A stretch of DNA of 64,000 bases, taken from NCBI GenBank assembly GCA_905221615.1, contig CAJNDT010006191.1, forward strand, positions 1 through 64,000, in the 5' to 3' direction. Within the stretch, counting starts at the first letter, position 1; each line of letters starts with the position of its first letter. This document shows, one piece after another, positions 5,051 through 62,660 of this stretch. This DNA comes from Symbiodinium sp. CCMP2592 (Eukaryota > Sar > Dinophyceae > Suessiales > Symbiodiniaceae). The notes under the pieces are model-generated. The model did not search any database and was not told the DNA's origin. It saw only the letters and a list, made by a program, of their open reading frames with translations. The translations under genes and the position numbers were made by a program.

Positions 5051-8000
5051 ATGGACCCACGAGCCGAGCCTAGCCGCGACCGTTCCCCAAGAGGACGGAG
5101 TTCAGGGCGAAGTGCTAGTCGTGCCAGTGGAGTTTCTTCTGGCTTTCCCTCAACCCCTCGAGAGTTGAGTGCACCTGGCTCGCGGACTCGTGGAAGGTCC
5201 CTCCCTGCTCGGAACAGTCCGACAGCACACCGGCCTGTGAGTAGACCCAGACCTCTTGTGAGTGCAGGTCAAGTGCCTCAGGTGCCTTTTCCACAGGTAC
5301 CTCAACAGGTTCCGTTGCAGCAGGGTTTTCAGCAGCAGCAGCAGCCTCAGTTTGGAACGCAACCGACTTTCCCTCACGGAGGAGGGAATCCTCAGCAGGC
5401 ATCTGTGCCTAGTCCAGAAGACAACACTGTCAACCTTTTCAGGCAGATGTTGCAAGCCCAGGATGAACAGATCCGAGCTCAGCAGGGCCAGATTTCGCAG
5501 CTCACCGAGATGGTGAAGACGCTCGCCGTTGCGAGTGCAAACGCTGCAAGTTCGGCCGCAAGTGCAGCTCCTGTTGCTGCAAGTTCGTCCCAAGGGACGC
5601 CCGCTGAAGCTCTTGGAAGCCTGGGTGCCATCAGAGTTGACTCTGATGGTGTTGTGAAGATGGATGTGGACACAGGCTTGCGCAGCAACAGGGCGGAAAA
5701 CTACATTCCGTCCCTGCCAAAGTTGGCAGCAGACAAGATGAGATCGCGCCATGAGGAAATCTCCACGTGGACCGCTTACCGCGAAGAACTGACCTCCTGG
5801 CTGTGTCTTTTAGACGACCGCTACGCGGAGGAACTGCAAGAGGCTGTGGAGAGCGGTGTTCAGGTTCAGCAGATCAGCCTCTCAAAGGGGAAGGCCGCTC
5901 GTTCCACTAAGCTGTGGTACCTCTTGAAGCAGGCTCTCGCTGGTTTTCAGCGAGGAGTTGACATAGCCAAGCTTGTCGAGTTGAGTCAAGGCGGTGCCGC
6001 TGCAGGGTACGACCTCTGGCGTGAGTTGAACAAAGAACTGTCTGTTAGGTCTCGTGTGGAGGGACAGGCGCTCAGAGAGCAGGCTCTCTTGATCGCGCCA
6101 CCAAAGCACTTGAGACGGCCATTGGATATTTTTCGCCATATGATTTCTGATTTTGCTCGCTACCGCACGCTCGTTGCCAACAAGTACCCAGACCTTGAAC
6201 TGCAGCAGGCTGATGTTATCAGCTGCATCTTGAAGCACCTTCATGATGATTGCAAGAAGTACCTTTTGTTGCATGGGTCTTTGACAACCTTGGAGCAGCT
6301 TGAGCGCGGTTTGGTTTTCTATGATGAGCAGCTTCGTGTTTTGAACTTTCACAAGGAAGCCTCGAACGCCAAGGGCTTTGCAGCTTTTGGTGGTGACCGT
6401 TCTGAAAAGGGTGAGCCCAAGGGTGGCGAGCCCAAAGGAAAAGATCATGGAAAAGGCCAAGGCAAGCATGGTGATAAAGGCAAAGGCAAAGACAAAGGAG
6501 GAAAGGGAAAGGACAAAGGCAAAGGTGGCAAGAAGGGCGGAAGGCCGCGATCTGCAACGCCGGCTCCTGGAAAGAAGAAGCCGGGCACTTGCAATTACTG
6601 CCACAAGCCGGGCCATTGGGCCAACGAGTGCAGGAAGAGGATTGCCGATGAGAAGGCTGCTGCGACCGCAGCGGCGGCAACAGAGAGTGCCGCTCCCAAG
6701 GTGGCCCCTCCTGCACCTTCCTCGACTGCGGCGCCAGCTCCCACTGCTCCAAAGGGTGCCGGGAAGATTGGCAAAGCGGCCCTCCTTATGTCGTCACTGT
6801 TGCCCGCGGCAGGGCAGATTTCTGAAGCAATGCCTGAGAGGGGACAGTTTTTCACCATGACTGCCTTGATTTTCACGTTTTTCATGTTTTGCATGGTAGG
6901 ATGCTTGATTTGTCGGTTGGTTGCATGCTTGAGTAGCCCACGGCAGTCATGTTTCACGTATGCTTGCGTAGCCGTAGCAGTGATTGCTTTGAGCCTTGCT
7001 TCCGCGCCGCAGCCTCAGCTTCGGGATCGGTCTTCAGAGTGCCTTGCTTTTCCAACTTTGGCACTTCCTGCAGTCACTAGGGACGACCCCTCGTATCTCT
7101 TGATTGATAGCGGTGGGAGTGTTCACCTTGTTTCGCAAGACATGCTTGGAGTGACTGCGAAGCTGATCCAAGAGCTTGAGGTTGAGCCTCTCTTTGTAAG
7201 TGTCGCCAACGACCAGACTATGGAGATAACTAGGTATGGGTTGCTAGAGCTTTGGTTCCCTTGTTTCGAAGCGGGGCCCTCTGGAACCCAAGCTTACAGA
7301 GAGATTCGAGTGCAGCTGGAAGCGTATATTGCCCCCAATTCGATAAGCATCCTTAGCTCAGGCATCTTGCAGTCCTTAGGCTTTAGGATCTTTCATTATG
7401 ACTATGATCCTCAGTTACACGTAGCCTATCCTCCGGGTGGTCTGCGCTTTGAGACAGAATTGTACGCCAACACGTCGTGGTTGAAAGCTTGCACCTATGT
7501 AGAGCCAGATCCTTCTATGCTTGTTTTGCAAAGTGAAGAGAAGGGAAGCGTAGGCAGTGCAGTTTCGTCGGTTGCCTCGTCTCACCCCTTAGGAGAAGTA
7601 GGATCTAGGAGTGTAGGTAGCTTGTGCGTCGGTCGGTCGGTTGCGTCTTCTCACCTTTTAGGTCCCGGCAGTGAATACCCCGAAGCCCAAAGCCGCTCAT
7701 GCTCGGAAGGCCAAATAGGGTGTGTAAGGCGTGATGTCTGGTTCGAATCCGGACCAAGAGATGGAGGACCAGGACATGGAGAACTCGACCTTCCGGGTTC
7801 AAAGGTTGCCGGCGGAGCAGACGGAGCTCTCCAACGACGTGGCGCTGCCGACTCCGGTCTCTTCCCCGGAATTGTCTCCTCACCTCACAGAGCCGGACTT
7901 GCCGACAGCAGAGGTGGAAGAGAGTCCGCCGATGAGTTTTGCGAGCCTTTTCGAAAGCAGCCCGGTGGAGCCGCCAAGTCCGTTGATTCTGCCAGGATCG

Positions 8001-33271: not shown

Positions 33272-33710
33272 TAAACCCCAAAGGGAACCCTAAACCCTAA
33301 ACCCCTACACAAAAAAAACCCTACACCCTACACCCCTAAACCTGAAGCCCTCACTCCGGACCTACTCCGAGGATCCTTACGAAACCCTGCGAAACACGGT
33401 TTAGGGCTTAGGGTCGAAGATTATTCCTTACAGATCCCTTCTAGGGCTATACTTTAAGGTACCCAACGGCTTGCTCCCATGACTAAGGGCCTCTACCTAC
33501 CTAAACCCTCTCCAGTGTTCCTGCAGTCACAACTTTGTTTGTTTTCTGCTTCCTCCGCAGGTGCAGGTTGCTTGCCGCAATGGGCAAGAGTGCCACATTC
33601 GTGATGATGATTATGCTCATGATGATGATGATTACTATCATTATGATCATGTTTGAAATTGTTTTAATTGTTAGGATTAGTACTATTGTTGTTGTTAATC
33701 TTATGACTAT

Positions 33711-33760
<50 letters not shown>

Positions 33761-33806
33761 CTACTCCTACTCCTCCTCCTCCTGCTGCTGCTGCTGCTGC
33801 TGCTAT

Positions 33807-33878
<72 letters not shown>

Positions 33879-33880
33879 GA
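33711..33880 (+). repeat. ACT trinucleotide microsatellite
   Basis: Runs of ACT interrupted by CTC and CTG blocks. Long open frames here in either strand are products of the repeat. Confidence 0.95.
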
Positions 33881-34949
33881 CTATGAGATTACCCACCAAG
33901 GCTTGTCAAGTAGTCTCGATGTGTTCCTGCATGTGCCCTAACCCCGAACCCCAAATCCTAAATCACATACGTAAGCCCTGAATCTTACCAAACCCTACGC
34001 TCGAACGTGCAAGTGCTCGAGGCGTTGGCGTGGGGTTATCGACGCTGACAAAAGAGTTGGGCATGGTTGATTGAAGGATATGGAATTCAGGGTTTCATGT
34101 TTCTGGATGGGTGATATTGATTTTTGAAACCTCCGTTTCCGAATCCAAGGCTCAAAGCCATCGGGCCTAGACCCTCAAGTCCCAAGATTTTAGGGTTTAG
34201 GGTTTAGTCCCAAAGAGTTTAGGATTTAGGGTTTGGGGTTTAGTTGTTCTCTTTGCAGGATCCGCTGGCCCCCCGGGAGAGCAATCACCGGAGAGACAGA
34301 GAGGCCATTGTCGCATGCTGTGCCTTTAGCGGGCCTTCATTAAAGGGGCATTCGCGTTTATCAGGTGGATCTTCTCAGTATGCCCGTAAAATCCCCCCTT
34401 TGGTATCATTCTATTCTATATATCGGTACTATTGCAACATTTTGTGGGGTTTGAAGAGGTTTATGAGGTTAGGAAATTGCGCTCCAGGGTTGAAGGCTCG
34501 GGCGTCCGGCATGAGCTCTTCGTCATACTACTTATACTAAGACTTAGGTACTGCCCGCGTACAGTAAGAGTCTATAATAGGGCTACTATTAAGGTCCTAA
34601 TATATCTATGTTATGAATATTTTCAACTATTACTGAGTCGGGGCCGTACGCAAACTAAGACCCACAAAGGATGGGGCTTTATTGCTGACAATTTCAAGCT
34701 ATGCAAAGATGTCACTGCATCAGAGATGGGTGGCGACGCTTCTGTATACTTGTTCAGTGCCGGGCAATAATCCAACCCTGACCTGGTCAGCATAAGAAGT
34801 TCGGATTCAGACTCCACACGGTAAGCTCGACGGTTCTTCAACGTTCTATAAGGGCTCTGTAAGTTGGTGTACCGGGATCTCTAAAGATTCTATAGGGGGG
34901 TTTCGGGGTTTAGGGTCTTTAAGCTCGGACTCTACGTCTCAAGCCTAAA

Positions 34950-36055: not shown

Positions 36056-36060
36056 GTTTG
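36056..36060. repeat. left target-site duplication of element 3 (GTTTG)
   Basis: GTTTG is repeated at 48530-48534. The reconstructed target around it is GGGTTTGGGC, a degenerate telomere-like motif. Confidence 0.88.
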
Positions 36061-36245
36061 TACGTGAATGCAACCCAACTTATAAGGAAAGATACGATAA
36101 TGAATCAAAGAACTGAAAGGAGACCCCTCGGAATCGGGCCTCGACTGACCTCAAATGTCTCACAGCTTCGACCTTTTTTCGTTGAACCAGAACAGCCTCG
36201 TCGTCCCAACCGGTCGCAGCCTGCAAGAGTCGCTTCTCTCACGCA
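36061..36245 (-). repeat. 3' LTR of element 3 (185 bp)
   Basis: Matches 48345-48529 at every base compared. Read on the minus strand it starts TGCGTGAGAG and ends GCATTCACGTA, so it has a short terminal inverted repeat TxCGTGA and ends TG...TA. It is short for a copia LTR in a 12-kb element. Confidence 0.93.
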
Positions 36246-36255
36246 CTCCCCCTTC
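36246..36255 (-). promoter_or_regulatory. polypurine tract of element 3
   Basis: On the minus strand GAAGGGGGAG ends directly at the 3' LTR, the expected place for the plus-strand primer. Confidence 0.75.
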
Positions 36256-36281
36256 ACCACTCCCTCCAAAGGAGTGGTGAA
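36253..36281 (-). other. hairpin beside the polypurine tract of element 3
   Basis: TTCACCACTCC and GGAGTGGTGAA form a perfect 11-bp stem with a 7-base loop. It overlaps the start of the purine tract. It could structure the 3' end of the transcript. The bases from here to 36723 are otherwise untranslated. Confidence 0.65.
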
Positions 36282-36723
36282 CTCAGGAGAGAGTTGGAAA
36301 ACAAGGCCCCACAATACAGCCCCTTCAAGGCTAAGCACAACCTAATTGACCCTCGCTGACCGACCAACGGAACTCCTGCCCTCAGGATCCCAAATATCAT
36401 TTCGAGGTCAAAAGCCAGATTGCAGATCGAACATTGCTTCCCCACAGTTGTTGTTGTGGGTCCTCTTCGAGGTAGCAAGTCAACCCCCGGCAACCTCACG
36501 ATTTAAACACTGACAGAACGATTCAGAGGACGGAGTCTCATAGCGCTACTGGCTATTCTAAAAACTGGATAAGACTTTCTAAATCCAGGAGACATCCTTC
36601 CCCTTTCTTTGTCTGTCTCGAAGAACTACTCAAGGCTGTCCATAACCTACACGGTCGCAACAGATCCTTCAGACTGCCCAGACCATATTCTGACCCTACT
36701 TAACTACCGAACTTAACACCCAA

Positions 36724-39700
36724 TCAGTCCGAAGAAGAAGTGGCCGAGACATAACCTTCCTCGACTCTGGTAAGCCAGGCACCAACCAAACCTTCAAACT
36801 CAACCCTGACCCCATCAGGATAACCCTCAACATCAACTCGATACCCGGCTCGCCACAAGCTGTACAAGATCCGTGCCCGATTGGGGACATGTGACTTCAA
36901 AGGCATTTCGATGTCCCCTAGATCTTCGGTCTGCACTCCCCGCTCTTCTTCAAACACCCTTTGGGTGTAGCACACACGGAACACGGCCTTAAGGAATTCC
37001 CAGGTCAGAATGATCAAAGCAATCTTACTCACCTCCCATGCTGTGGACCCATCACAGGAATCTTTCCCAAAGACGCTCACGTCTTGGATGGAGGGGCGAA
37101 CAGCAAGCGCATTGTTCAAGTCAGTTTTAATGCACTGTTTCTCCGGGAGGTCCCAAGGCTCATCTGAAATTGCCTCTACCGCCTTAACGCACCCCCAAAA
37201 GAACCAGACGATCAACAATCCGACTAGTCGAACAACCCTCCGAAATCCGACTCCCACAGCTCTCGTACTCCGAAACCTTCGAGGAACATCCGTACTACCG
37301 CTGGGCAGCTCAGTTCCCTCTACCACGGTAGCCTCTAACCCCCGCTGAAGTAGTAGTTGAAACGACGTCCAATCCCCGGTGTTAAGCCCTGCCACAATCG
37401 CTTGAACGTCCGAAACACTCCAGCCCGGAAGAGGAACCGACCAAGTGTCATCTACATAGGTACAACACAAACGCTCCTCGTCGGCAGTGTACAATGTCTG
37501 AGCCCTCAAACCCTCGGCCGGTCTAGCCGTCGATTCCACTTCTTCGGTCACCCCAAGATTCTGCACTCCGACACTGCTGCTACCCAAAGAACTATTGGAA
37601 ACGACCGACGGTTCCTCAGTGGAAGCGGAATCGCTTTCAGAAGACGAAGAACCAAGCAACTCTTGAGCTACGGGGGCTAGCCTTACAACAGGTCCCTGGT
37701 CAAAGTGTCGTAGAGGTCGCTCGTCAATTTCGGAGTCATCCGATACATCACCCTCACCTTCCTCGACTAGGGGCCCGTCGGGCTGCCGTTCCGCAAACGG
37801 GAAACGCACTTCTCCTGTCTGCCAGTACGCATTAGCAGCATCAAACGTAGCTGCCGTAGTTGCCACATACAAATGATGAGTCCTTCTTAACCAAACCGAC
37901 AATGCCATGGTTGCACTACTCCTGAACCCATCCGAAGTCGCTCGCAGACATCCATGGGAGCTTACCCGATTACCTAAGAAATCCAGAACCAACCATCCCG
38001 TAGTCATAAAAACACTCCACAAATAGTGAACATTCACCCCCGGCGCCCACAAAACATAAGGAAAATCAGGATGCCCCACATCCAGTGGAGCAACTTCCGG
38101 CTCTTCAGGGCTCTCTTCCGGAGGGCCATACAGCAAAAACTCCCCAACTAGCTCCAGCCACATAGGACCCTGATACCTAGCAGCCTCTGGGCCCTCCCGA
38201 AGCTGATCCGCTAAGGCTCCGTAGAGCCCGAAACGCACAGCACTGGAAGTGGCGCGAACATTTAGCCAGTCCCGGGCCCTCATTCCTAACATGGACAGAA
38301 GCACACCTCCTACACTCGAGAACAGCTGTAGCAGGAAATGAACCTGGATCCACGATCCCACCATTGGCCAATTCTCTAGTGAACCTTCAAGTGGAAGATA
38401 ATCCTCGTAATACAAGCCCGTTTGCTCCAGAGGGATAGCTTGCATCCCATGTGAAGACGAACTACCCCCTACCTGAAAGTTCGGCGTCACAGCAGTCGGC
38501 ACCTCTGAAGTCCCTCCCGTAGCTGACGCTGCAGGAACGGGTTCAGCATCCCCTGAAACTTCTGAAGAACTACCGTACCCTTGAGCACCTGAACTCCCCC
38601 CAATCTGCACCGAGGAATCCGAAAGCCCTTGAGCGCCTGAACTCCCCCCGATCTGCACGGCGGAATCCGAAAGCCCTTGAGTGCCTGAACTCCCCCCGAT
38701 CTGCGCAGCGGAATCCGAAAGCCCTTGAGTGTCTGGTACAAACCTCCAATCGTTCCCAAACTCGGTATGCTGAAACACCCACTTTCCCGAAGGCCTTGCG
38801 CCTTCTACCAAAACTCCAGTATCTTGAAACTGTCTCATCAACCTAAGAACAGCATCATCCCGAAGCGCCCTAGCAGCCATGCTCAACTCAAACCACTCCC
38901 GAGCTGGCCTAGCAAAATAATCAATCAAAACCGCCCAACCACGACTCAGGATCCTAAGCCAAAGACCTAAACCGTCTGGGGCCACTGGAGCGAACGATTG
39001 CAAAGCAGGGCGCTGGTCAGAACTGCCACTAGGCTCCCCTTGATTGTTCGAAGAGTCCGTAGCCGCAACCCAAAGTGGAACCGGTCCGAAGCGCTGTAAG
39101 AAAGCAGGCGGATCCAACACCCCACCCCTCTCTAGAACCCTCCTAATCCTAGCCCTCTGAACGAAGGTGAGACCGGTTTCCCTCTCCATCGATTCCAGTT
39201 TAGCTTGGGCCGCAGCCCATTCCTCATCATTAAAAACATCATCAGCGCCATCGACCTCTCCCCTACGTTGATCCGAAGTCTCAGGCTGCTCACACAACTC
39301 CTCAGGAGGAAGGGTTTGACCAGCAGGATCGAAGCCCTCAACAGAACCCTGGTCACCAGTAGCTACCCCGGAACCCTCATCACCGAACGGATCCAAACAG
39401 ACCCCGCTAGGCTCCGAAGTTCCAGAACTCCCAGTTCCCAGGCTATCCCCAAAGAACAACCACCAGCTCCAAAGCGAGGCAAGGACAGTCACCAAGAACC
39501 CAAACACCCAAAGCAACCAATCCCATCGCATCCCCACTGGATCATCCAATGGTTGCCCCTTCGCACGGGGTAGCATAGCCAAAAGAGCCAGACCTGCCAA
39601 GGTCTGCGCTAATTCATCTATGGAGCGACCCTCCTCAAAGCACAATCGACTAAGCACACGAGCGGTTTCAGCAGAATCCTCAGGCACAACCCTAACCCTA

Positions 39701-42700
39701 ACATTGATTAGATCTAAGAGCCTAAGGATACGGGGTCGGGTTAGCGGTTTGGTGCCTAAGTCCGCCACCAACTGCTCGCCCGGCATATGGGACACACGCA
39801 ATACATTGGAAGAGATTCTTTCGCGGGCCGCGTGTGCCCTCATTCTAAGGTGGCGGTTACGCCAGCCGCTCGGCGACTGTTCAAAACTTCGGATAGCTGC
39901 TTCGTTGTCGGCGCGTAATGAAATTATGGAGTCCGCCTCCACGGCCTCCTCGATGAGGGGCTGGATGGCCTCAGCCCTTTGGATCCCCACCACCATTGCC
40001 ACGAGCTCCGCCTCAGCACTGCTCAGCGTTACAAACGGCTGCCTGGTCACTTCCCAAGCCAGCGGCACACAGCGCCATACCACAAAAATCGATTGCATTG
40101 AACGTTCACCTCCCGGACTGTGGGAAGCGTCAGTATACAACTCCAGCGCTCGATCATTTCGCGGCAGTGACAAAAGCTCCTGGTTCGAGAAGGTATCCCC
40201 AAGCTGAAATGGCACATCTATCCCCATATCAATCGTCGTCTTCAAGTAAGCAAGCGTTTGTCTACCCAGCGCAATCGAAAGCAGAGGCGATTTCGTCGCC
40301 TGTTGCCCACATCGTGCCACGGTATAAGCTATATCTGGTCGCGTACGAGTCGACAACCACAATAACGCACCTGTCACCGCTTGTGCTTCCCGGATCTGGT
40401 CAATGGTAGCCGCCTCATCGCCTTCTGGCTCGGTCCACTTGTGAATTGGTACGCTAGCTTCTTCGGTGATCTCATAGCGGTTGAGAAGCTCCTTTACGTA
40501 AGCTCGTTGCGTCATCCGGTAACCCCTCTCTCCTTTCGATAGCTCTATGCCGCAGAAAGTCACTGGTTTCTCATCAATCCATTCAGGATCGCTTGTCTTC
40601 CAGTTTGCCCGAATGGCAGAAATAAACTGACGGCACAAATCCGCTGATCCAAAGAAGGCTAGGTCATCTACATACACAATTAAAATCCCGGCCGTGGCCC
40701 CCAAACTACCATTCTTAAACACCCTAACCAACCACAACGCGTCATCTGACTTCATCTGGGTCAGCCGGTACGTAACTCCCTCAGACACAATCTCAAGCTT
40801 GGAAAACTCCTCGTCTCGGTAGCGTCCCCAATCCCTAGGGGAAGTCGGCAGACCATACAATGCCTTGCGGATCCACCATCTGTCATCCCTCTCTAGTAAC
40901 CCCAACTCTACCAGAAAACTAGGAGGCTTCACCACAATCCGCTCTTCCTTTCCCTCATAGTCACTACGGATAGGAGCATACAGAAAAGCTGATTTAACAT
41001 CAATGGTCACTCCTACCCAAAGAGGGAACCGTGCTGCAAACGTCAATGCCATCTTTACAGACAAGGCTTCCGCACCCGACGCGTAAAGGTCCTCCCTAGT
41101 CAACCCCAGCTTATCCGTAGGCAAATAGTTCCCACAACAAACGGCCCTACACCTACGCTTCCCGGTCCCTGACTTCCTGGTAAGAACCACCTTGCCTGGT
41201 AACTGCACCACGTTCACTCCCTCATCAGCCCATTTGTCGACTACTGACGCCTTGACTCGGTCTACAGCACGATTGGTAGTCTCTAGACTAATCACCTCAT
41301 CCTGGGCCGGGTCCTTCCACATATCAAGTTCCCGCCTAGCCTCTACCAACCCCACTGTCCTAGTCTGAAGAAACTGATCAGGAGCACCATTATCCCAAAG
41401 AGGGACCTCAACCTGAAGGGCTCCTACCCTAATCCCGTCTTGGTATCCCGCTAACCCTTGCTCCAGCCACTCACATTCGATCTCAGCTCTCCGGAGCTGC
41501 ACGGCAGTTTCATGAACCCCTTCTTCGTTATCCACCGCTTCGCACAGCTCCCCAGCTAGAAACCGACACAGTCTGGCCGAACACTGGTGCATGTAATCCC
41601 AAGTCGGTTGAACGTGCTCCCAAAACGGCGCCGGAAGGGCTACCTCCCAACACTCTTCAACTGGTGGCACGTCTAACATGTTAACCGAAGCCCCAAACCG
41701 TTCGGTCACCTCCAACAGTCGATTCCTCACACCCTCAACTGGAAAACCCAGCTCCTGAAGTTCCCTCCACTGATCTTCAGTAGTACTGGCTACCCCCCTG
41801 GGGACAAATGCCGAGATCACCCATCTAGACTCACCCAACCAGGTCTCTGGAACATGCCATCGTTCTCCAGAGAACAACACAGGCGCCTTCCTTATATCGT
41901 AGACCGTACCTGGGCTAAGCCTACCATTCGACAACTCCTTGCAAACCGACCCTTCACCGCGCTCTCCTTCAACCCAAAGTCCTCCTCCTACGAAATCACC
42001 AACAGCCCTAACCAACACCTCGAAACCTTTCGCATTCCCTAGGTCACGGTGCATAGGCATAACAGTATTCCGGGAGACATACAGGGTTGTCCACACGTGG
42101 TCAGGGCACTGCTTCAACATAAACTGATTAAGGTATCGGGTCACCTCTACACAATCCCTCGTAGCCTTAGAGATCCCATGAAACCCCCCTAGCCCATACA
42201 ACCCAAGTAGCAGCGCTCTACCGCGCCCCTGCAGCATAGGTCTCCGAGCTATGGGGATTTCCTTCAGACCCCTTTCAAGAACTTCCAAGCATTCCGAAGC
42301 AGAGCCTTCCCCTTGGTCAACTCGATCCCGAAGCCACACTTGGTCGTCCTCACAAATTCCCTTCAAAACAGACCCGTAACTATCCAAAACCCCATCAACA
42401 CTTACCACTCCGATTCCAGGCTTCCCCTCAGCGGTCTCGTCATCTTCTTCCCAATCATCTTCAACCCCGCTACTAAACCCAGAATCTACCGAAGAGGTTT
42501 CATCCCAAACCAGCCCACTGCCAGCCTTCGAATCATTACTCTTAAAAGAATCCGAGCAATTTTTAAATAAGGACAAGGACTCCCCCCCATGCGCGGCTCC
42601 ACCGCACATGGAAAGCTGCCCCACGCTCGGACCCGTCAGGACCCCAGCTGCTACAGCACGCAACGCAAAAGGCGGCGAGCGCTTGTGGCCCAAACGGTAC

Positions 42701-45700
42701 TTCGGTTTAGAAACCGCCACCTCATGAGCCCGGAGCGGGTACACCGTATTCGTCAACAGCACCTGCTGAGAAGCAGCCTCCGCACCCGGAACCAACACAA
42801 GATGACCTCCCGGAGTATGGGGAGCTGGCCCCAGATACTTGCCCTCCACTGTGCGAGACTCCCACTGAGCATCGTAACCAGTCCGCGTGCGACGACGTGC
42901 ATGCACCTTAAGGCCAAACGGAAGAAGTGGCATCTGTGGAACCCCAGCCGTTTCGCAAAATGTAGCCCAATTGCGCGCGGAGCCGTGCAGCAACGCCAAC
43001 GGCCACATTTCCTTTCCCAGTCCAGAAATAAAGAGCAACTTCCGGATAAACGCCTTTAACGCCTGGACCCCAAGCTCAGCCCGGTTAGCCGCTGGGGCTT
43101 CCCCAGCTGTCCAGGTAGTATGAATGCCTTTATCCTTAAGCCAACTCACTAATGCGTGACTTCTAAGCTCCTTGGCACGATCCGCATGATATCTCTGAAT
43201 CGGAAAACCAGCTGATTCAAATCGATTAACGATCCCTTGAATTTGATGCAACGTCTCACGGCCCTTCTTAGTGCGTAACGGAACCCCCACAAACAGAGTT
43301 TTCCTATCCTTAATACTGGCCTCTTCTTTACCCTTTTCCGGATCCACATCCTCTGGCCTTTTAGAGCGCACCCTCCTAGTTACCGCATTAAGCTGAGCAA
43401 CTTCCTCTAGGGACAAAGGTATCTGGTCAAGCTCTTCCATCAGCTCCTTCGCCTCTGGATCATTTTCCCAAGGGGCAGAACCCACACCCTTAGCTTCATC
43501 AGCATCATCCCTAACCAAATGCCCACATTCAACCGGATCTCCATCATCCTGGTCCTTAGGCTTATCAGCTGATTCAGGGGTAAATCCACCCGGAATGGTA
43601 TAAGCACATGCAAGGAAATAGCGGTATCCACCCCCCTTATCCCTTCCACTAGCTTCTACATCCCACGAATACCCTGACACAAAGGGACCTGCTAAGTCGA
43701 TGCTAAGAGAATGGACCCCCGGGAACCCCGAACGCCAATGGGATCTTTGCCTGCCCTGGGCACTAATGCATATGGGGCAACCCTTCCTGTAGGGAACATG
43801 GTCATTGGCTACATGACGGGCATAGGACTCTTCTTCAGTAAGCTTTTTCAGAATGACCCTCCGTTCTGTGACTTCATCCTGTTTAGCTTGTTCCCATCTC
43901 CAAAGAACCCAAGCCCTCTGAATCGCCCAAAGTAAATCCCGTGTCCAACCAAGCCAGCAACCTTCCGAAGAACCAATACCAACGAGACTATGACCTTCTG
44001 AAGCCTCAGCTTCCTCCGTTCCTCCAGTCGCGTGCAAAGCCTCAAACAGAAACCAAGAACTTGTAACCACGGAGTTATTCCACGGTTGCTCCGTAAGCTC
44101 CCTTCTTGGGTCCAACACTGCCGTACTCAGGCCATAAGCTGCTATAAAACGATCACCCTTTAAAACGCCCCCCGTGGGAGCAAGATGGCCATTCAGCAAT
44201 TGCCCGTCCAGGGCCAGAAAAACTTGGCTCAAAGGATTTTCCGAGGCCCCTTCAATGTTACACGCGAAATCAGAGGGAGCCTTGCTTAACTCGCCACAGT
44301 CCCGAACCGCCTGCGCTACAGCAAACAGAAGTACCAATCTCAACATACGTACAACTTCATCTTCAACACCAACACCTTCAGGCCCCAGTTCCTTAGACAC
44401 GGAATCCTTAACCAATCCCCCAATGACCCCAACATGAGCCCACTTCAACAGAAGCCTAAAAACCAACCTTGATCCCAAACCGCGTTCCGAATTTGCCACC
44501 GACACCACTCTACCCTTGCCCTTCCAGGACATGGAAAAAGGTGGAATCGCAAGCAACACCGAGCCCCGATCGGCTCTCGACACAGATCTTCTCAATCTAC
44601 GATTCCAAGGCAGATCTGACCAATCCTCCTGATGCTCATCAAGCATCGGCGCACAAGCCCTTGCTAGCAGCTCAAAAGGAACCTCCGGAAACAAAGCCCT
44701 AAGGTAGATAAGCTGGTCCACGTCAGAAACTCCAGCTTCCCCTCTAGCCTGAACTTTCCTTTTAATCCAGTCCCTAGCCGCCAAAACATCAACCCCCTGA
44801 AGCAAGTCCTGAACCTCAGCCTTACTTATCAACGGCGCGCCCCGCTTCCTATCCTCATACTCCTCCAACAGCTTCAAACCAACTGCCCTAGGGATAAGAG
44901 GACAACCCTTAACTACCGTGACGTCCAGGGCTCCATGCTTACGGTGTTTCACCTTGCAACCGCCGCGCTTCCAACTAATACTATAACCAAGACTAACCAA
45001 ATAACTCGCGGGAAGAATAACCTGACACTCCCCTTTATGCAACAACGTACCAAACGCATTAATGCGCAGCTCAGTTCCACCGCTCGCTAAGTCAACCCTT
45101 ATGACACGGCAATCCTCGGCTTCACCCGCGGCCGCAGGCCGCAAGGCATTAGTCGCACCGCTATCAATCAGGCAATAACCAGGGTCCGAAGCGCTCACAA
45201 GCGCACTCCGCACCCAGGAAAGGTCCACTTCGGACTCCTCACCAAAAGCCGAATCGACCCTCACAGCCCTCAATGACACTCCCTTTAACAGCTTCGTTGC
45301 CTCAGCCACCAAGGCCTCTTGACTAATGGTGGGAGTAACACTCGCTGCTGCTACGCTCGCGCTCTGACTCGCACTGTCTGGTTTCGGACCTTGATCCTCT
45401 GAAACCCCTTTGGCCTGAGCCCCCGCCTTCGCCTTAGGCTTACCCTTGGGAGACCCCTTACCCTTTGGAGATCCATCCGACCCTTGGTCCGAAACCACAA
45501 CCCTGTGCTCCGGTGGTACAACAGGACAATCAGGGCGAAGGTGCCCACCTTGCCCGCAAGCCAGGCATTTGCCCTCGCGGCGGGCTTTAGCCCTGTCATG
45601 CTTAAACCTACAGCTATCCCCAAACCTACACCCTGTCCCATCATTAAACTTGTGACAGAGCGGCAACTCACCCTTTCCCTTTCCCTTCCCTTTTTCAGGA

Positions 45701-48264
45701 GACTCACCCTGGCCCTGACCCGTAGTCACAGCAGCTACCTGAGGAGCCCCCAGATTCACCGAAGGGGGAACGGGGGGTGAAGCCTTTGTAGGCGGAGCTG
45801 GTGCAGTCACACCCGCTTGTTCCCTTGCAATGGCTGCCGCGGCCAGCTTTGTACGCTTGTCCGCTGCCGCATCCGCCGTTATCGACGCCGCTTCGCATTC
45901 GGCCTGGATCAATCGTACTAGTTGAATGACATTCGCCACCGTCGGGTTATAATCAATCGCCAGTTGATGCCTAAACGCGTTCACGCGGAATCCTATCATT
46001 GGATGGGCAGCCAACAGCGCTGCTGTAGACGTGTCCACCCCCTTCAATAAGAGCGACGGATCCGGCAACGTCGCATGGATTTCGCCTGCACGTTGTAACC
46101 CCTGTTGCCAGGTACGAAGACTCTTAATCGCCTCGCTAAACGACTTACAAACACTAGGATTAACCAGCTGGGATAACAAGTGTGATCGTTCGCTACTACC
46201 TCCTGGTTGAAACAGGCACAGCACTCTAAAGAGGATCGCGGCACTACTGAGCCATCTATTCGTAACTACGTCATCCCGAATGGACTGAGGTACCGCTGCC
46301 AGTAGAAGGCTAACCGACCTACTCTCAACCCTCCCATACAGATGCTGATCAAAACTCCCTACGATCGTAGACGGGTCGATCGACAGGCGACCAAGCGGAT
46401 CTGCCACAAGCCACTTACGGTACGCGATGGTTGCTGGTTGTTCTACGCCCTGCCACCACACCGTCGCACTGGCTGATAATCCTATCATAATCTGTCTCAC
46501 TTGCGCCAACCAGTTGCCACATACTACCGCGGAGTTCGCCAGATCTGATTGATTAAGTTTAGGCAATTCCGAAATGTAGCGGGCTGGTTCTTCAGGTCTT
46601 ACCGATCCTACCCCAGTAGAGTCCCCCAGTTCCGGAGCACTAAACCCCCGATAAGCTTCAGCTAAACCCTGAGGAACCACGGGAAGAAGACCATCCCCTA
46701 CCCCTGATGCCCCCGTTTGCATACCCAAACCTCCGCAACCCTGAAACCTTCCTGGCATCGCAGAACCCAAAGTCCCAGAAGTCTGACCCGTTGGCCCCCC
46801 TAGAAACCCGGAATTCCCTATCCCCGAATGTCCCAAGGAAGTCTCAATTCCTCTGCCCCCCTGTGCACTGGTGGGCGCACCTGTACCGATAGCTCCAGCG
46901 CCCGCGCACATAGTTGGCGGAAGAGGCGGAGGCCGGATAACACTTCCCCCAGGGGAAAGCGGGTACCCTTCAGCATCAAAGCCCACTACCCCCTCGGTAA
47001 GAGCCCTTGGCGTATGGAACCCACTAGTTCCTTGAGATTCCCTGTTCCCAGCTCGAACTTGTTCAGCAAACTGCCGCATGGTTTGAGGAAGGTCCGGAGG
47101 CCTAATCCCAGGAGAGTTCATGGATTCAGGAAGTCCTACCGGGCAGGGTGGAAGAGGCAGAGGCGCAGCGGGGAGAGACGAGCCTAGGTTTGTTGCTTCT
47201 GCTCTCATGAGGGTATCCATGGGGCCCTGTCGCATCATCCAGTTAGAAGCTACCAACTCATGACGAGGCCCTGTCCAGGAATGTAAGCCCCCGGGAAAGA
47301 CACCTTCCCAACCTGCGTCCCTAGCCTTCAAGTTATAACTACCCACATCGAGGCTCGACTGACCTGGGAAATCGTTGGCAACAAACGTCTGTACATCGCT
47401 TCCTACACGGGGCCCAAAAGTAACTGGTGATCCTTCAGGGCCAGTCGCTCCTCCAAGCTCCGGTACAGCAACTCCACTATGCCAACTGGAATGCGATCTC
47501 GACTCGTTGTGCTCTAGCCTCCTCTTCAACTGCTTGTTCTCCGTCATAACCTGCACAAGCATATTTTCCAACCTCTCCAAGCGGTCATTGGATCCAGCTG
47601 GGATCAACTCCCGGGCGTCTCCCTCCACTCCGAAAGGGTCAGGTCCCAACTGTTCTTTCAAACCAGCTCCCCTCTGCGAGACATCTCCCGCCTGGGCGGG
47701 ACTTCCCGCCTCTTGAGAGACAGCGGAGCTTGCCGCCACGAACTCCTTCGCAGGAACCCCAGCATCTGCCAGCCCACGATCTGAGTCCTCCCTCTGGGCG
47801 GACGCCTCCACCCGCGCAATACGCGGGGTCGTCTGCGTCCGATCAAGCTGCCCCAACACCGCCGCATAGTCCGGCTCGTGGGTTATTCCACTCCCCGGTT
47901 CTCCAAGCGCCGGCTCATCCGGAGCCACACCCAATCGACGCCCTTCCGCGTCCAGCGCAACTGGTCTCGATCTCAGCAGATGAACCTCCGCCTTGACTCT
48001 CTCGGAATGAAACGGGTGAGGCACCGGTAACGATCCCTCACTTCGCAAGGCCTGTGCCTCGCCGGACTCTAACGTCCCTGGGGACGCTTCCCCATGAGCC
48101 GTCACTCCACCACCCACACCATTCAGAGATGCTTCCTCGGCACTTCTGACAGGAGTTCCTGGAACTCCCGCTTGACTCAAGGCTGTTCGAAACGCTTGAT
48201 CCCTTCCAGCTTCCTCCTGCTCCTCCGTCAGTTCCGATCGTCTCTTACGAATCATAGGATCCAT
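36724..48264 (-). CDS. copia gag-pol polyprotein with dioxygenase-like insert and membrane-type extension
   Basis: The ATG (MDPMIRKRRSEL) lies 80 bases inside the 5' LTR; 3,846 codons follow without a stop. Gag covers about 1-920, with a CCCH finger from Cys870 and a CCHC knuckle CLACGQGGH from Cys900. Protease has IDSGAT (Asp1034). Integrase has HHCC-like CPIC, Asp1523, Asp1695 and Glu1730. A 2OG-Fe(II) oxygenase-like domain follows at about 1960-2170 (His2072, Asp2074, His2137, Arg2147). Reverse transcriptase has YVDD at 2531-2534; RNase H has LYTDAS, SSAEAEL, ADNEAA and VADLGTK, ending near 2855. The last 990 residues contain several hydrophobic stretches (about 2911-2939 and 3675-3694 are clearest) and three 17-residue repeats. 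At this length it is well over twice a usual copia polyprotein. Confidence 0.95.
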   Translation of the reverse strand: MDPMIRKRRSELTEEQEEAGRDQAFRTALSQAGVPGTPVRSAEEASLNGVGGGVTAHGEASPGTLESGEAQALRSEGSLPVPHPFHSERVKAEVHLLRSRPVALDAEGRRLGVAPDEPALGEPGSGITHEPDYAAVLGQLDRTQTTPRIARVEASAQREDSDRGLADAGVPAKEFVAASSAVSQEAGSPAQAGDVSQRGAGLKEQLGPDPFGVEGDARELIPAGSNDRLERLENMLVQVMTENKQLKRRLEHNESRSHSSWHSGVAVPELGGATGPEGSPVTFGPRVGSDVQTFVANDFPGQSSLDVGSYNLKARDAGWEGVFPGGLHSWTGPRHELVASNWMMRQGPMDTLMRAEATNLGSSLPAAPLPLPPCPVGLPESMNSPGIRPPDLPQTMRQFAEQVRAGNRESQGTSGFHTPRALTEGVVGFDAEGYPLSPGGSVIRPPPLPPTMCAGAGAIGTGAPTSAQGGRGIETSLGHSGIGNSGFLGGPTGQTSGTLGSAMPGRFQGCGGLGMQTGASGVGDGLLPVVPQGLAEAYRGFSAPELGDSTGVGSVRPEEPARYISELPKLNQSDLANSAVVCGNWLAQVRQIMIGLSASATVWWQGVEQPATIAYRKWLVADPLGRLSIDPSTIVGSFDQHLYGRVESRSVSLLLAAVPQSIRDDVVTNRWLSSAAILFRVLCLFQPGGSSERSHLLSQLVNPSVCKSFSEAIKSLRTWQQGLQRAGEIHATLPDPSLLLKGVDTSTAALLAAHPMIGFRVNAFRHQLAIDYNPTVANVIQLVRLIQAECEAASITADAAADKRTKLAAAAIAREQAGVTAPAPPTKASPPVPPSVNLGAPQVAAVTTGQGQGESPEKGKGKGKGELPLCHKFNDGTGCRFGDSCRFKHDRAKARREGKCLACGQGGHLRPDCPVVPPEHRVVVSDQGSDGSPKGKGSPKGKPKAKAGAQAKGVSEDQGPKPDSASQSASVAAASVTPTISQEALVAEATKLLKGVSLRAVRVDSAFGEESEVDLSWVRSALVSASDPGYCLIDSGATNALRPAAAGEAEDCRVIRVDLASGGTELRINAFGTLLHKGECQVILPASYLVSLGYSISWKRGGCKVKHRKHGALDVTVVKGCPLIPRAVGLKLLEEYEDRKRGAPLISKAEVQDLLQGVDVLAARDWIKRKVQARGEAGVSDVDQLIYLRALFPEVPFELLARACAPMLDEHQEDWSDLPWNRRLRRSVSRADRGSVLLAIPPFSMSWKGKGRVVSVANSERGLGSRLVFRLLLKWAHVGVIGGLVKDSVSKELGPEGVGVEDEVVRMLRLVLLFAVAQAVRDCGELSKAPSDFACNIEGASENPLSQVFLALDGQLLNGHLAPTGGVLKGDRFIAAYGLSTAVLDPRRELTEQPWNNSVVTSSWFLFEALHATGGTEEAEASEGHSLVGIGSSEGCWLGWTRDLLWAIQRAWVLWRWEQAKQDEVTERRVILKKLTEEESYARHVANDHVPYRKGCPICISAQGRQRSHWRSGFPGVHSLSIDLAGPFVSGYSWDVEASGRDKGGGYRYFLACAYTIPGGFTPESADKPKDQDDGDPVECGHLVRDDADEAKGVGSAPWENDPEAKELMEELDQIPLSLEEVAQLNAVTRRVRSKRPEDVDPEKGKEEASIKDRKTLFVGVPLRTKKGRETLHQIQGIVNRFESAGFPIQRYHADRAKELRSHALVSWLKDKGIHTTWTAGEAPAANRAELGVQALKAFIRKLLFISGLGKEMWPLALLHGSARNWATFCETAGVPQMPLLPFGLKVHARRRTRTGYDAQWESRTVEGKYLGPAPHTPGGHLVLVPGAEAASQQVLLTNTVYPLRAHEVAVSKPKYRLGHKRSPPFALRAVAAGVLTGPSVGQLSMCGGAAHGGESLSLFKNCSDSFKSNDSKAGSGLVWDETSSVDSGFSSGVEDDWEEDDETAEGKPGIGVVSVDGVLDSYGSVLKGICEDDQVWLRDRVDQGEGSASECLEVLERGLKEIPIARRPMLQGRGRALLLGLYGLGGFHGISKATRDCVEVTRYLNQFMLKQCPDHVWTTLYVSRNTVMPMHRDLGNAKGFEVLVRAVGDFVGGGLWVEGERGEGSVCKELSNGRLSPGTVYDIRKAPVLFSGERWHVPETWLGESRWVISAFVPRGVASTTEDQWRELQELGFPVEGVRNRLLEVTERFGASVNMLDVPPVEECWEVALPAPFWEHVQPTWDYMHQCSARLCRFLAGELCEAVDNEEGVHETAVQLRRAEIECEWLEQGLAGYQDGIRVGALQVEVPLWDNGAPDQFLQTRTVGLVEARRELDMWKDPAQDEVISLETTNRAVDRVKASVVDKWADEGVNVVQLPGKVVLTRKSGTGKRRCRAVCCGNYLPTDKLGLTREDLYASGAEALSVKMALTFAARFPLWVGVTIDVKSAFLYAPIRSDYEGKEERIVVKPPSFLVELGLLERDDRWWIRKALYGLPTSPRDWGRYRDEEFSKLEIVSEGVTYRLTQMKSDDALWLVRVFKNGSLGATAGILIVYVDDLAFFGSADLCRQFISAIRANWKTSDPEWIDEKPVTFCGIELSKGERGYRMTQRAYVKELLNRYEITEEASVPIHKWTEPEGDEAATIDQIREAQAVTGALLWLSTRTRPDIAYTVARCGQQATKSPLLSIALGRQTLAYLKTTIDMGIDVPFQLGDTFSNQELLSLPRNDRALELYTDASHSPGGERSMQSIFVVWRCVPLAWEVTRQPFVTLSSAEAELVAMVVGIQRAEAIQPLIEEAVEADSIISLRADNEAAIRSFEQSPSGWRNRHLRMRAHAARERISSNVLRVSHMPGEQLVADLGTKPLTRPRILRLLDLINVRVRVVPEDSAETARVLSRLCFEEGRSIDELAQTLAGLALLAMLPRAKGQPLDDPVGMRWDWLLWVFGFLVTVLASLWSWWLFFGDSLGTGSSGTSEPSGVCLDPFGDEGSGVATGDQGSVEGFDPAGQTLPPEELCEQPETSDQRRGEVDGADDVFNDEEWAAAQAKLESMERETGLTFVQRARIRRVLERGGVLDPPAFLQRFGPVPLWVAATDSSNNQGEPSGSSDQRPALQSFAPVAPDGLGLWLRILSRGWAVLIDYFARPAREWFELSMAARALRDDAVLRLMRQFQDTGVLVEGARPSGKWVFQHTEFGNDWRFVPDTQGLSDSAAQIGGSSGTQGLSDSAVQIGGSSGAQGLSDSSVQIGGSSGAQGYGSSSEVSGDAEPVPAASATGGTSEVPTAVTPNFQVGGSSSSHGMQAIPLEQTGLYYEDYLPLEGSLENWPMVGSWIQVHFLLQLFSSVGGVLLSMLGMRARDWLNVRATSSAVRFGLYGALADQLREGPEAARYQGPMWLELVGEFLLYGPPEESPEEPEVAPLDVGHPDFPYVLWAPGVNVHYLWSVFMTTGWLVLDFLGNRVSSHGCLRATSDGFRSSATMALSVWLRRTHHLYVATTAATFDAANAYWQTGEVRFPFAERQPDGPLVEEGEGDVSDDSEIDERPLRHFDQGPVVRLAPVAQELLGSSSSESDSASTEEPSVVSNSSLGSSSVGVQNLGVTEEVESTARPAEGLRAQTLYTADEERLCCTYVDDTWSVPLPGWSVSDVQAIVAGLNTGDWTSFQLLLQRGLEATVVEGTELPSGSTDVPRRFRSTRAVGVGFRRVVRLVGLLIVWFFWGCVKAVEAISDEPWDLPEKQCIKTDLNNALAVRPSIQDVSVFGKDSCDGSTAWEVSKIALIILTWEFLKAVFRVCYTQRVFEEERGVQTEDLGDIEMPLKSHVPNRARILYSLWRAGYRVDVEGYPDGVRVEFEGLVGAWLTRVEEGYVSATSSSD
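37185..37245 (-). other. hydrophobic segment near the C-terminus of element 3 polyprotein
   Basis: VVRLVGLLIVWFFWGCVKAV, about residues 3675-3694, is long and apolar enough to cross a membrane. It is followed by an acidic and basic tail to the stop. Confidence 0.6.
38569..38735 (-). repeat. 51-bp tandem repeat in element 3 ORF
   Basis: Three and a bit units encode QGLSDSAVQIGGSSGTQ-like 17-residue repeats in the C-terminal extension. The DNA copies are nearly identical, so the array expanded recently. Confidence 0.85.
39450..39533 (-). other. hydrophobic segment after RNase H in element 3
   Basis: WLLWVFGFLVTVLASLWSWW, about residues 2911-2939, looks like a transmembrane helix. A second, milder hydrophobic stretch precedes it (AGLALLAMLP). 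Confidence 0.65.
41755..42390 (-). other. 2-oxoglutarate/Fe(II) dioxygenase-like domain in element 3
   Basis: Between integrase and reverse transcriptase the frame encodes TTLYVSRNTVMPMHRDLGN (His codon 42049-42051, Asp 42043-42045), then VGDFVGGGLWVEG, then YDIRKAPVLFSGERWHVP (His codon 41854-41856), then GESRWVISAF with the Arg expected to bind 2-oxoglutarate. HxD, a GG-x-LW strand, the distal His and the Arg ten residues later make up the iron and cosubstrate site of the jelly-roll oxygenases. The HRDxxN form and the F-x-G-x-x-x-H spacing resemble the TET/JBP-like group. Substrate is unknown. Confidence 0.75.
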
Positions 48265-48312
48265 GGCGGTGGACTACGGAGTAGTTACTTACAGCAACCC
48301 TCTAACTGGAAG

Positions 48313-48344
48313 TATACCTTATTACGCCGTTACGGCTGATAACC
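48313..48344 (-). promoter_or_regulatory. primer-binding-site candidate of element 3
   Basis: On the minus strand GGTTATCAGCC follows the 5' LTR directly. It resembles the TGGTATCAGAGC initiator-Met type with one base inserted, so the assignment is tentative. The rest of the 80 bases up to the ATG is leader. Confidence 0.45.
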
Positions 48345-48529
48345 TACGTGAATGCAACCCAACTTATAAGGAAAGATACGATAATGAATCAAAGAACTGA
48401 AAGGAGACCCCTCGGAATCGGGCCTCGACTGACCTCAAATGTCTCACAGCTTCGACCTTTTTTCGTTGAACCAGAACAGCCTCGTCGTCCCAACCGGTCG
48501 CAGCCTGCAAGAGTCGCTTCTCTCACGCA
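48345..48529 (-). repeat. 5' LTR of element 3 (185 bp)
   Basis: Same sequence as 36061-36245. Followed by the GTTTG duplication at 48530-48534. Confidence 0.93.
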
Positions 48530-48534
48530 GTTTG
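48530..48534. repeat. right target-site duplication of element 3 (GTTTG)
   Basis: Repeats 36056-36060 and continues GGGC into the flanking DNA. Confidence 0.88.
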
Positions 48535-61211: not shown

Positions 61212-61311
61212 CTCGGGTCTTTCTGGCATGAGCGGATTGTCACCGCTACACGTAAACCCTAAACTACCAGCGAGAAGAATAGTCCTAGTCGCATGTTCAG
61301 CAGTTGATTTT

Positions 61312-62040
<729 letters not shown>

Positions 62041-62660
62041 CCAGTAGCAGTAACAGTTGCCGTACGGTAGCAGTAGCAGGCATTAGTGGCAGTGGTCGTG
62101 GTCGTGGTGGGAAGGGGGGAGGAAGCCACAGGAGGAGGAGGTGTTGTTTTCAAGTTTGTTTTGAGGTGCCCTGGGCTCGGGGCTTAGATGCGTGTCGTGT
62201 GGGATTGAGGGCACGAAGTCCGCGAAGACAGTGGACCTTGAGGGTTTTCCATTGCATGCCAAATCATAAACGGTGGATGCCGGATGCGCCAAGGGCTTGC
62301 TCTGCATCAAAACCGGGATTTGCTGAGTTCGGTGTTCAGGTTTTGTTTGGGCTTGTCTCGGATTTGCGTAAGGCTCGCTCGGAGTTTACATCGGAGTTTA
62401 GGGTTGGGGACCAGACAGACTTGCGCTGACAAGCCGCAGGTTTAAACAGAAATGCCACAGAAAGTCCCGAACATCAAAAGCCCCCGCTGTAAAGCTCTGC
62501 ATCAAAGCACTCTAAGCCTTAAACTTAGGGACCCAAAAAGGACATAAGCATCAGCATTTCATACGAACTTCCCTAAGTTATTGGGTTGTTGGGCTTCATT
62601 ATAACGGGGTTTATATGGGATATCACTATCCATGTTTTTGCTTATGCGCTTTTTGGGGCC
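62041..62660. other. non-repetitive island, no recognised gene
   Basis: A frame leaving the microsatellite runs to 62429 (plus) with about 110 residues of ordinary composition; it matches nothing I know. Confidence 0.35.

Follow-up and report, generated by a model that had tools for sequence, protein, structure and literature searches.

A 64,000-nucleotide stretch of DNA from the dinoflagellate Symbiodinium sp. CCMP2592 (GenBank assembly GCA_905221615.1, contig CAJNDT010006191.1, positions 1 to 64,000; hereafter the window) contains a Ty1/copia long terminal repeat (LTR) retrotransposon whose polyprotein holds a domain best read as a TET/JBP-like oxygenase dependent on 2-oxoglutarate (2OG) and Fe(II). 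This had been proposed in a sequence-only reading of the window, and it is now backed by the predicted fold, the Pfam relatives, the active site and the pocket. It is close to certain that the domain is a real, conserved 2OG-Fe oxygenase, and probable that it is a nucleic-acid base oxidase of TET/JBP type. The same reading had spoken of a nucleic-acid-modifying enzyme; of this the TET/JBP-like oxygenase stands, and that it acts on DNA, and on which base, we infer.

The element and the oxygenase motifs

The element is a Ty1/copia retrotransposon, complete from LTR to LTR (window 36061-48529, minus strand). Its two LTRs of 185 nt show 0 differences, which argues for a recent insertion; GTTTG stands on each side (36056-36060 and 48530-48534), and a purine-rich tract precedes the 3' LTR. 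The LTRs, the 5-bp target duplication, the integrase placed before the reverse transcriptase (RT) and the RVT_2 type of the latter (Pfam, E 1.4e-9) are all those of the Ty1/copia class. The polyprotein is encoded by a single uninterrupted open reading frame (ORF) of 3846 amino acids (36724-48264, minus strand). The window sits in contig C5329, and the genome searched is a 1.098-Gb assembly.

The four motif strings named in the sequence-only reading, and their residue numbers, were found to be right: HRDLGN begins at residue 2072 (window 42051-42034, minus strand), GDFVGGGLW at 2089, FSGERWHVP at 2131 and GESRWVISAF at 2144, and the last two include His2137 and Arg2147 respectively. The domain lies between the integrase (residues 1476-1800) and RT (2355-2602), and the interval first given for it, 41755-42390, is within about 30 bases of the bounds set by a hidden Markov model (HMM). 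The motif alone is weak evidence, because the bare H.D-(40-80)-H-(8-18)-R pattern was recovered in 671 of 1000 shuffles of the polyprotein; with the GG..W motif added it appeared in 9 of 1000, for a pattern chosen after the sequence was seen. Since such chance matches are frequent, conservation among relatives is the decisive test.

Conservation among relatives

A protein search with the domain region recovered seven polyproteins (E 5.9e-80 to 3.7e-18), including two from Symbiodinium sp. CCMP2592 that are named GIP and RE1, and a search with the domain alone recovered one fragment, P0011. In the alignment of eight relatives with the window copy HxD is kept in 9/9, and the distal His and the Arg in all 8 sequences reaching that far. 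The search of the own genome was limited to the best 150 of 4839 first-look candidates, a choice that favours intact copies; an internal stop interrupts the matched stretch in 8 of these 150, and the frames around many of them are 2000-3900 codons long. The 72 loci retained include five duplicate places, leaving 67 distinct genomic places with the window among them, near-copies being still present (e.g. L004-L006, L007/L008, L019/L022, L036/L038 and L009-L012).

The iron ligands are kept at every one of the 67 places and are written with both synonymous codons: His2072 (CAC 32, CAT 35), Asp2074 (GAT 29, GAC 38) and His2137 (CAT 42, CAC 25). They belong to the 9 of 204 reference positions that are invariant across the places, and the conservation of HxD and His, on which the sequence-only reading had staked its case, is thereby borne out. 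Arg2147 is kept at 57/67 places through six Arg codons. In the remaining ten (L018, L028, L053-L060) it is replaced by Met, with His for Trp2142 in 10/10; all of these are short frames of 178-323 amino acids, which may use another co-substrate or be inactive. The short frame of L028 (4653-5309 / 5313-5903, minus strand) directly adjoins a frame with a Peptidase_S74 domain (E 4e-7). This chaperone of endosialidase is found in tail fibres, and the neighbourhood hints at a virus-like or Maverick-like carrier.

Selection on the domain points in the same direction, as dN/dS is below 1 (range 0 to 0.54) in 26 of 26 usable pairs with dS of 0.005-1.8; for the pair L002/L034, for example, dS is 0.235 and dN 0.011. 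The set comprised 46 distinct loci and 1035 pairs, of which 832 gave no estimate and 26 of the other 203 were summarised, most of the locus pairs being saturated at synonymous sites. With so few usable pairs, the codon counts carry more weight. When whole polyproteins are compared, the domain shares 46-59% identity with the window copy, which is roughly the level of integrase (47-66%) and below that of GAG (61-83%), protease (63-81%) and RT (58-90%). In most comparisons it exceeds the linkers (43-58%) and the extension at the C-terminus (38-51%); in P0009 it is no better conserved than the linkers, and P0007 and P0008 align only partially behind the domain.

A structural relic, that is a fold kept for polyprotein architecture or nucleic-acid binding and devoid of catalysis, is from these data barely credible. 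The Met in place of the 2OG-binding Arg in the ten short frames would agree with it, as would the loss of the distal His in two DIRS-type proteins described below, but outside the short-frame group the iron triad and the Arg are intact at 57/57 places. The HxD...H triad, the C-terminal Arg (in the window and at 57/67 places) and the predicted fold are together those of a 2OG-Fe(II) oxygenase.

Predicted fold and family assignment

The fold was assessed on one AlphaFold2 model of the window domain, with a predicted local distance difference test (pLDDT) of 83.1 and a predicted template modelling score (pTM) of 0.83. The model shows a double-stranded beta-helix, and the jelly-roll core expected by the sequence-only reading is therefore present in the prediction. 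With VIA-align the highest scores were obtained for NgTET1 (11.1, 10.9 and 10.9), followed by FTO (10.2), AlkB (9.9), TET2 (9.8) and CcTet (9.6); the best 50 matches are all TET, FTO, AlkB or ABH entries, one of them titled only 'RNA dioxygenase'. In the viral library of Foldseek the best named match is a phage 2OGFeDO JBP1/TET protein (E 8.5e-7, TMq 0.55) at rank 2, rank 1 carrying no name. A protein hydroxylase (prolyl, lysyl or Asp/Asn) directed at the capsid, the integrase or a host factor is thus very improbable: some viral prolyl and Asp/Asn hydroxylases occur lower in the viral fold list, but the best 50 VIA-align matches are all nucleic-acid oxygenases and prolyl hydroxylase Pfam families were found in 0 of 37 members.

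At the level of sequence, Tet_JBP (PF12851) is matched by 2/9 and by 5/37 relatives, with the best E-value (2e-7) in the DIRS-like copy L013. Among ten members scanned singly, L013 (30.8 bits), L020, L019 and L030 match this family, and so do P0010 (E 0.0025) and P0006 (E 0.13) among four pieces scanned. Neither AlkB nor prolyl hydroxylase nor any other 2OG family of Pfam was detected in the 37 members at E up to 10, a range in which the HMMER filters drop most matches above E 0.1. An HMM built from alignment A1, which holds no DIRS row, detects the DIRS-like copies at 61-69 bits, so the link between the copia and the DIRS domain is direct. The profile of A2 (37 rows, L013 included) recovers eight DIRS-type proteins, P0014-P0021 (E 4.1e-35 to 4.4e-20). 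To four of them, P0015, P0016, P0017 and P0019 (A2 profile E 7.5e-35 to 1.2e-28), the database assigns PF12851; in our own scan they score 25.9-28.7 bits, under the cut-off. Sequence matches in the PDB, found with the domain and with profiles A1, A2 and A3, were a hybrid NRPS-PKS, SAKe6 chains, CFAP77 and a sensor kinase, all of which were rejected as unrelated.

The active site carries the comparison further. According to PMC11040006, a residue just behind HxD, Asn1387 in hTet2, Asp234 in NgTet1 and Asp350 in CMD1, bonds N4 of 5-methylcytosine (5mC), and an aromatic residue (CcTet Phe391, hTet2 Tyr1902) stacks on the base. In the copia domain Asn2077 occupies the HxDxxN position at 67/67 places, and position 2153 is aromatic in 67/67 (Phe 41, Tyr 26); the equivalence of both to the TET pocket rests on sequence spacing and not on an inspected superposition.

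Several results weigh against the TET/JBP assignment. No scanned member reaches the Pfam cut-off of PF12851 (30.8 bits at best versus 34.9), and for this reason the domain is named TET/JBP-like and not a member of the Pfam family; for the window domain itself Pfam gives nothing at E up to 10, and a Pfam scan of the whole polyprotein returned no oxygenase family. The His or Arg of TET enzymes at Arg+8, which contacts O2 of the base, is absent, being replaced in the 67 places by Pro (43), Ser (14), Thr (9) or Ala (1). VIA-align differences within 1 are to be read as ties, hence TET and FTO cannot be told apart by fold score, and the first match of Foldseek is ALKBH5 (E 6.1e-5).

The last two points speak for an AlkB-like demethylase, which would remove N-methyl marks (m6A, m1A, m3C) from the RNA or cDNA (complementary DNA) of the element, a role also ascribed to the AlkB domains in the replicases of some plant RNA viruses. 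FTO, AlkB, ABH2/3 and NMAD-1 score almost like the TETs, and fragments of grapevine virus replicase match in the viral fold library. The AlkB motif RxNxTxR, however, has its second Arg at Arg+6, which is found at 0/67 places, Phe or Tyr standing there instead, and AlkB Pfam families are matched by 0/37 members at E up to 10 compared with 5/37 for Tet_JBP. We therefore consider such a demethylase improbable; as judged from these sequences, the evidence leans to TET/JBP rather than AlkB.

Distribution over element types

The order seen in the window (INT-OXY-RT) recurs in 14 frames (L019, L022-L027, P0001, P0004-P0009), at least 2 of which repeat a place, and ten frames (L015, L016, L017, L020, L021, L029-L032, P0010) have the domain before the integrase (OXY-INT-RT). 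In an RT tree of 20 rows, for which long-branch warnings were given, each order has a clade to itself (INT-OXY-RT 99/97, OXY-INT-RT 89/81); the resolution of the domain tree is too low to tell whether each architecture captured the domain separately. The genome was also searched with RVT_2, the best 150 of 5766 first-look candidates being scored.

The third kind of carrier lies outside copia. L013 has two frames that we take to end in a zinc-knuckle-like motif and to encode a tyrosine recombinase, respectively (Pfam gives the recombinase only a weak N-terminal match, E 0.42), and behind them one in which Pfam recognises Tet_JBP (E 7.6e-6) and, weakly, RVT_1 (E 0.012). From its sequence L013 looks like a DIRS-like element. 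In L013 (3911-7762, genome contig C485), as in L009-L012, the TET/JBP-like domain is followed by a methyltransferase-like stretch and then by RT. The motifs VEVFSGTAILSRAFF, PPCGTASR and ENPANSHFW are presumably those of a methyltransferase; in this stretch no Pfam family is matched at E up to 10. The DIRS-like Pol of L013 would then possibly combine oxygenase and methyltransferase within a single polyprotein. In the DIRS-type proteins P0018 and P0020 Arg replaces the distal iron-binding His, and some DIRS copies may be inactive. When PF12851 was run over the whole genome and 150 of 155 candidates were scored, the 4 places recovered belonged to a single family of DIRS-like Pol and stayed under the cut-off; a host TET gene did not turn up in this search, which intron-rich host genes would escape.

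Proposed function

The TET/JBP-like oxygenase, a module of the GAG-Pol polyprotein, is proposed to be released, or used within Pol, and to accompany RT and integrase into the virus-like particle. It would flip a base out of the DNA and oxidise its 5-methyl group, the substrate being most likely 5mC and possibly thymine or 5-hydroxymethyluracil (5-hmU), and it would do so on the new cDNA of the element or at the insertion site. As a part of Pol the enzyme would be at hand both during cDNA synthesis and on the way of the cDNA to the integration site. By this means the element could alter or remove the base marks that allow a heavily CG-methylated, 5-hmU-rich host to recognise or silence it. Most of the Symbiodinium genome is reported to be CG-methylated, and it has been argued that the methyltransferases carried by its DIRS elements modify cDNA while reverse transcription is under way (PMC5890265). 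The most economical mechanism seems to be that the enzyme oxidises 5-methyl-pyrimidines of the element's own DNA and so removes or disguises a hostile mark; the product may be 5hmC, 5-hmU or a more highly oxidised base. We hold the explanation as a whole, a Pol-borne TET/JBP-like oxygenase that oxidises bases of the element's DNA, to be slightly favoured, and lean to the same small degree towards the element's own DNA as the place of action; as to 5mC rather than a uracil-type base, the balance is even.

A substrate of the uracil type could be used in two ways: the enzyme would make 5-hmU, so that the cDNA resembles host DNA, or it would oxidise host 5-hmU and so remove a silencing mark. In dinoflagellates 5-hmU takes the place of 12-70% of T (PMC6723414), and in Breviolum most repeats, except some LINEs, are enriched in 5-hmU, while Copia ranks with the classes of lowest accessibility (PMC11071213). 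The best fold match, NgTET1, acts on T too (PMC12344493), but the Asn at HxDxxN is reported for a 5mC enzyme, hTet2 (PMC11040006). This Asn could bond O4 of a uracil-type base as well as N4 of cytosine. Going by the title of Li et al. 2024 (PNAS), 5-hmU of dinoflagellates reportedly has a role in silencing transposable elements, and an enzyme for 5-hmU is said to be known. Self-made 5-hmU would then be an odd choice for an element, and an eraser would be favoured over a maker of 5-hmU if the base is of the uracil type. Altogether the thymine or 5-hmU substrate is considered possible, though rather unlikely. A wider extension of the eraser model, which we put forward as a speculation with a small chance of being correct, is that large copia and DIRS families of dinoflagellates run their own base oxidation, a TET-like eraser in Pol rewriting 5mC or 5-hmU on cDNA and at insertion sites, so that retrotransposons and not host genes would shape much of the modified-base landscape.

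Features of the element and its surroundings

The features of the copia element are listed in Table 1. The C-terminal extension has no Pfam family above the cut-off, a weak DUF7937 match being below it.

Table 1. Features of the Ty1/copia element in the window (residues refer to the polyprotein)
Feature	Position	Strand	Basis
Whole Ty1/copia element, LTR to LTR	36061..48529	-	LTR identity, GTTTG flanks
5' LTR (element sense)	48345..48529	-	185 nt, 100% identity with 36061-36245
3' LTR (element sense)	36061..36245	-	185 nt, LTR identity
Polyprotein GAG-PR-INT-OXY-RT-RNaseH-C-terminal extension, 3846 aa	36724..48264	-	ORF
CCCH and CCHC zinc-finger-like motifs, GAG end, residues 868-914	45523..45663	-	CCCH just under cut-off, CCHC far under
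Protease DSGA motif, residues 1034-1037	45154..45165	-	motif, taken to be that of copia protease
Integrase region, residues 1476-1800	42865..43839	-	HMM of related elements; rve weak, E 0.16
TET/JBP-like 2OG-Fe(II) oxygenase domain, residues 1962-2179	41728..42381	-	HMM, AlphaFold2 model, fold matches, conservation
HxD iron-binding motif, His2072 and Asp2074	42043..42051	-	67/67 places
Asn2077, HxDxxN position, by spacing hTet2 Asn1387	42034..42036	-	67/67
Distal iron ligand His2137	41854..41856	-	67/67
Arg2147, putative 2OG-binding residue	41824..41826	-	57/67, Met in other 10
Phe2153, aromatic at Arg+6 (TET base-stacking position)	41806..41808	-	Phe 41, Tyr 26 of 67
Reverse transcriptase, residues 2355-2602	40459..41202	-	HMM; RVT_2 E 1.4e-9
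RNase H region, about residues 2688-2763	39976..40203	-	weak RT_RNaseH_2 match, E 0.087
C-terminal extension, about 1000 aa, behind RNase H	36727..39774	-	three hydrophobic segments

Elsewhere in the window a second copia frame, P0003 (5036-14119, plus strand; RVT_2 E 1.5e-23), is without the oxygenase domain by HMM. P0002 (14107-22521, plus strand) is a LINE-like frame (RVT_1 E 3.8e-14) with a UCH ubiquitin hydrolase domain at its C-terminus (E 3.2e-5, barely above the cut-off). A short tandem-unit array occupies 61270-62043, and an inverted copy of about 70-85% complementarity lies ~27.5 kb away, at 33675-33886.

Relation to known systems and significance

Transposon-borne oxygenases of this type with the HxD/H triad have been described from fungi, where TET/JBP genes are carried by Kyakuja, Zisupton, hAT, Harbinger and Helitrons and are thought to counter methylation-based silencing (PMC12730594). 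Those carriers are DNA transposons or Helitrons, whereas the algal domain is a module of a copia Pol polyprotein. SymbioDIRS-Dnmt3 and SymbioLINE-Dnmt are likewise retrotransposons of Symbiodinium whose Pol includes, or lies next to, a base-modifying enzyme, and a modification of cDNA has been proposed there too (PMC5890265); their enzyme, however, is a methyltransferase, a writer, and that of the copia element an oxygenase. The same paper says that Symbiodinium Copia has no DNMT domain, and its text contains neither the word TET nor the word oxygenase. For streptophytes and dinoflagellates jointly, DNMT3 is reported from LTR Copia and DIRS elements (PMC12344493). From NgTET1, hTET2 and CcTet the copia domain differs in having no His or Arg at R+8, in an identity of about 10% and in lying inside a retrotransposon polyprotein; CMD1 was not among the fold matches listed. 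In plant RNA virus replicases AlkB domains are likewise 2OG oxygenases fused into a replicative polyprotein, but these are RNA viruses, and the copia domain is without the AlkB signature.

Among the matches listed in the openly licensed literature, judged mostly by title and the start of the abstract, there is no report of an oxygenase in a dinoflagellate or LTR retrotransposon. Transposon-borne TET/JBP-like enzymes being known, we rate the element class and the architecture as what appears to be new, with a function that is putative. If confirmed, a TET-like oxygenase in the Pol of an LTR retrotransposon would be the missing counterpart to the fungal TET/JBP transposons and to the DNMT retrotransposons of Symbiodinium, with an eraser or modifier built into the replication machinery. 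One could then test how retroelements persist in a genome where most CGs are methylated and much of the thymine is hydroxymethylated, and whether the odd base make-up of dinoflagellates is partly due to their mobile elements.
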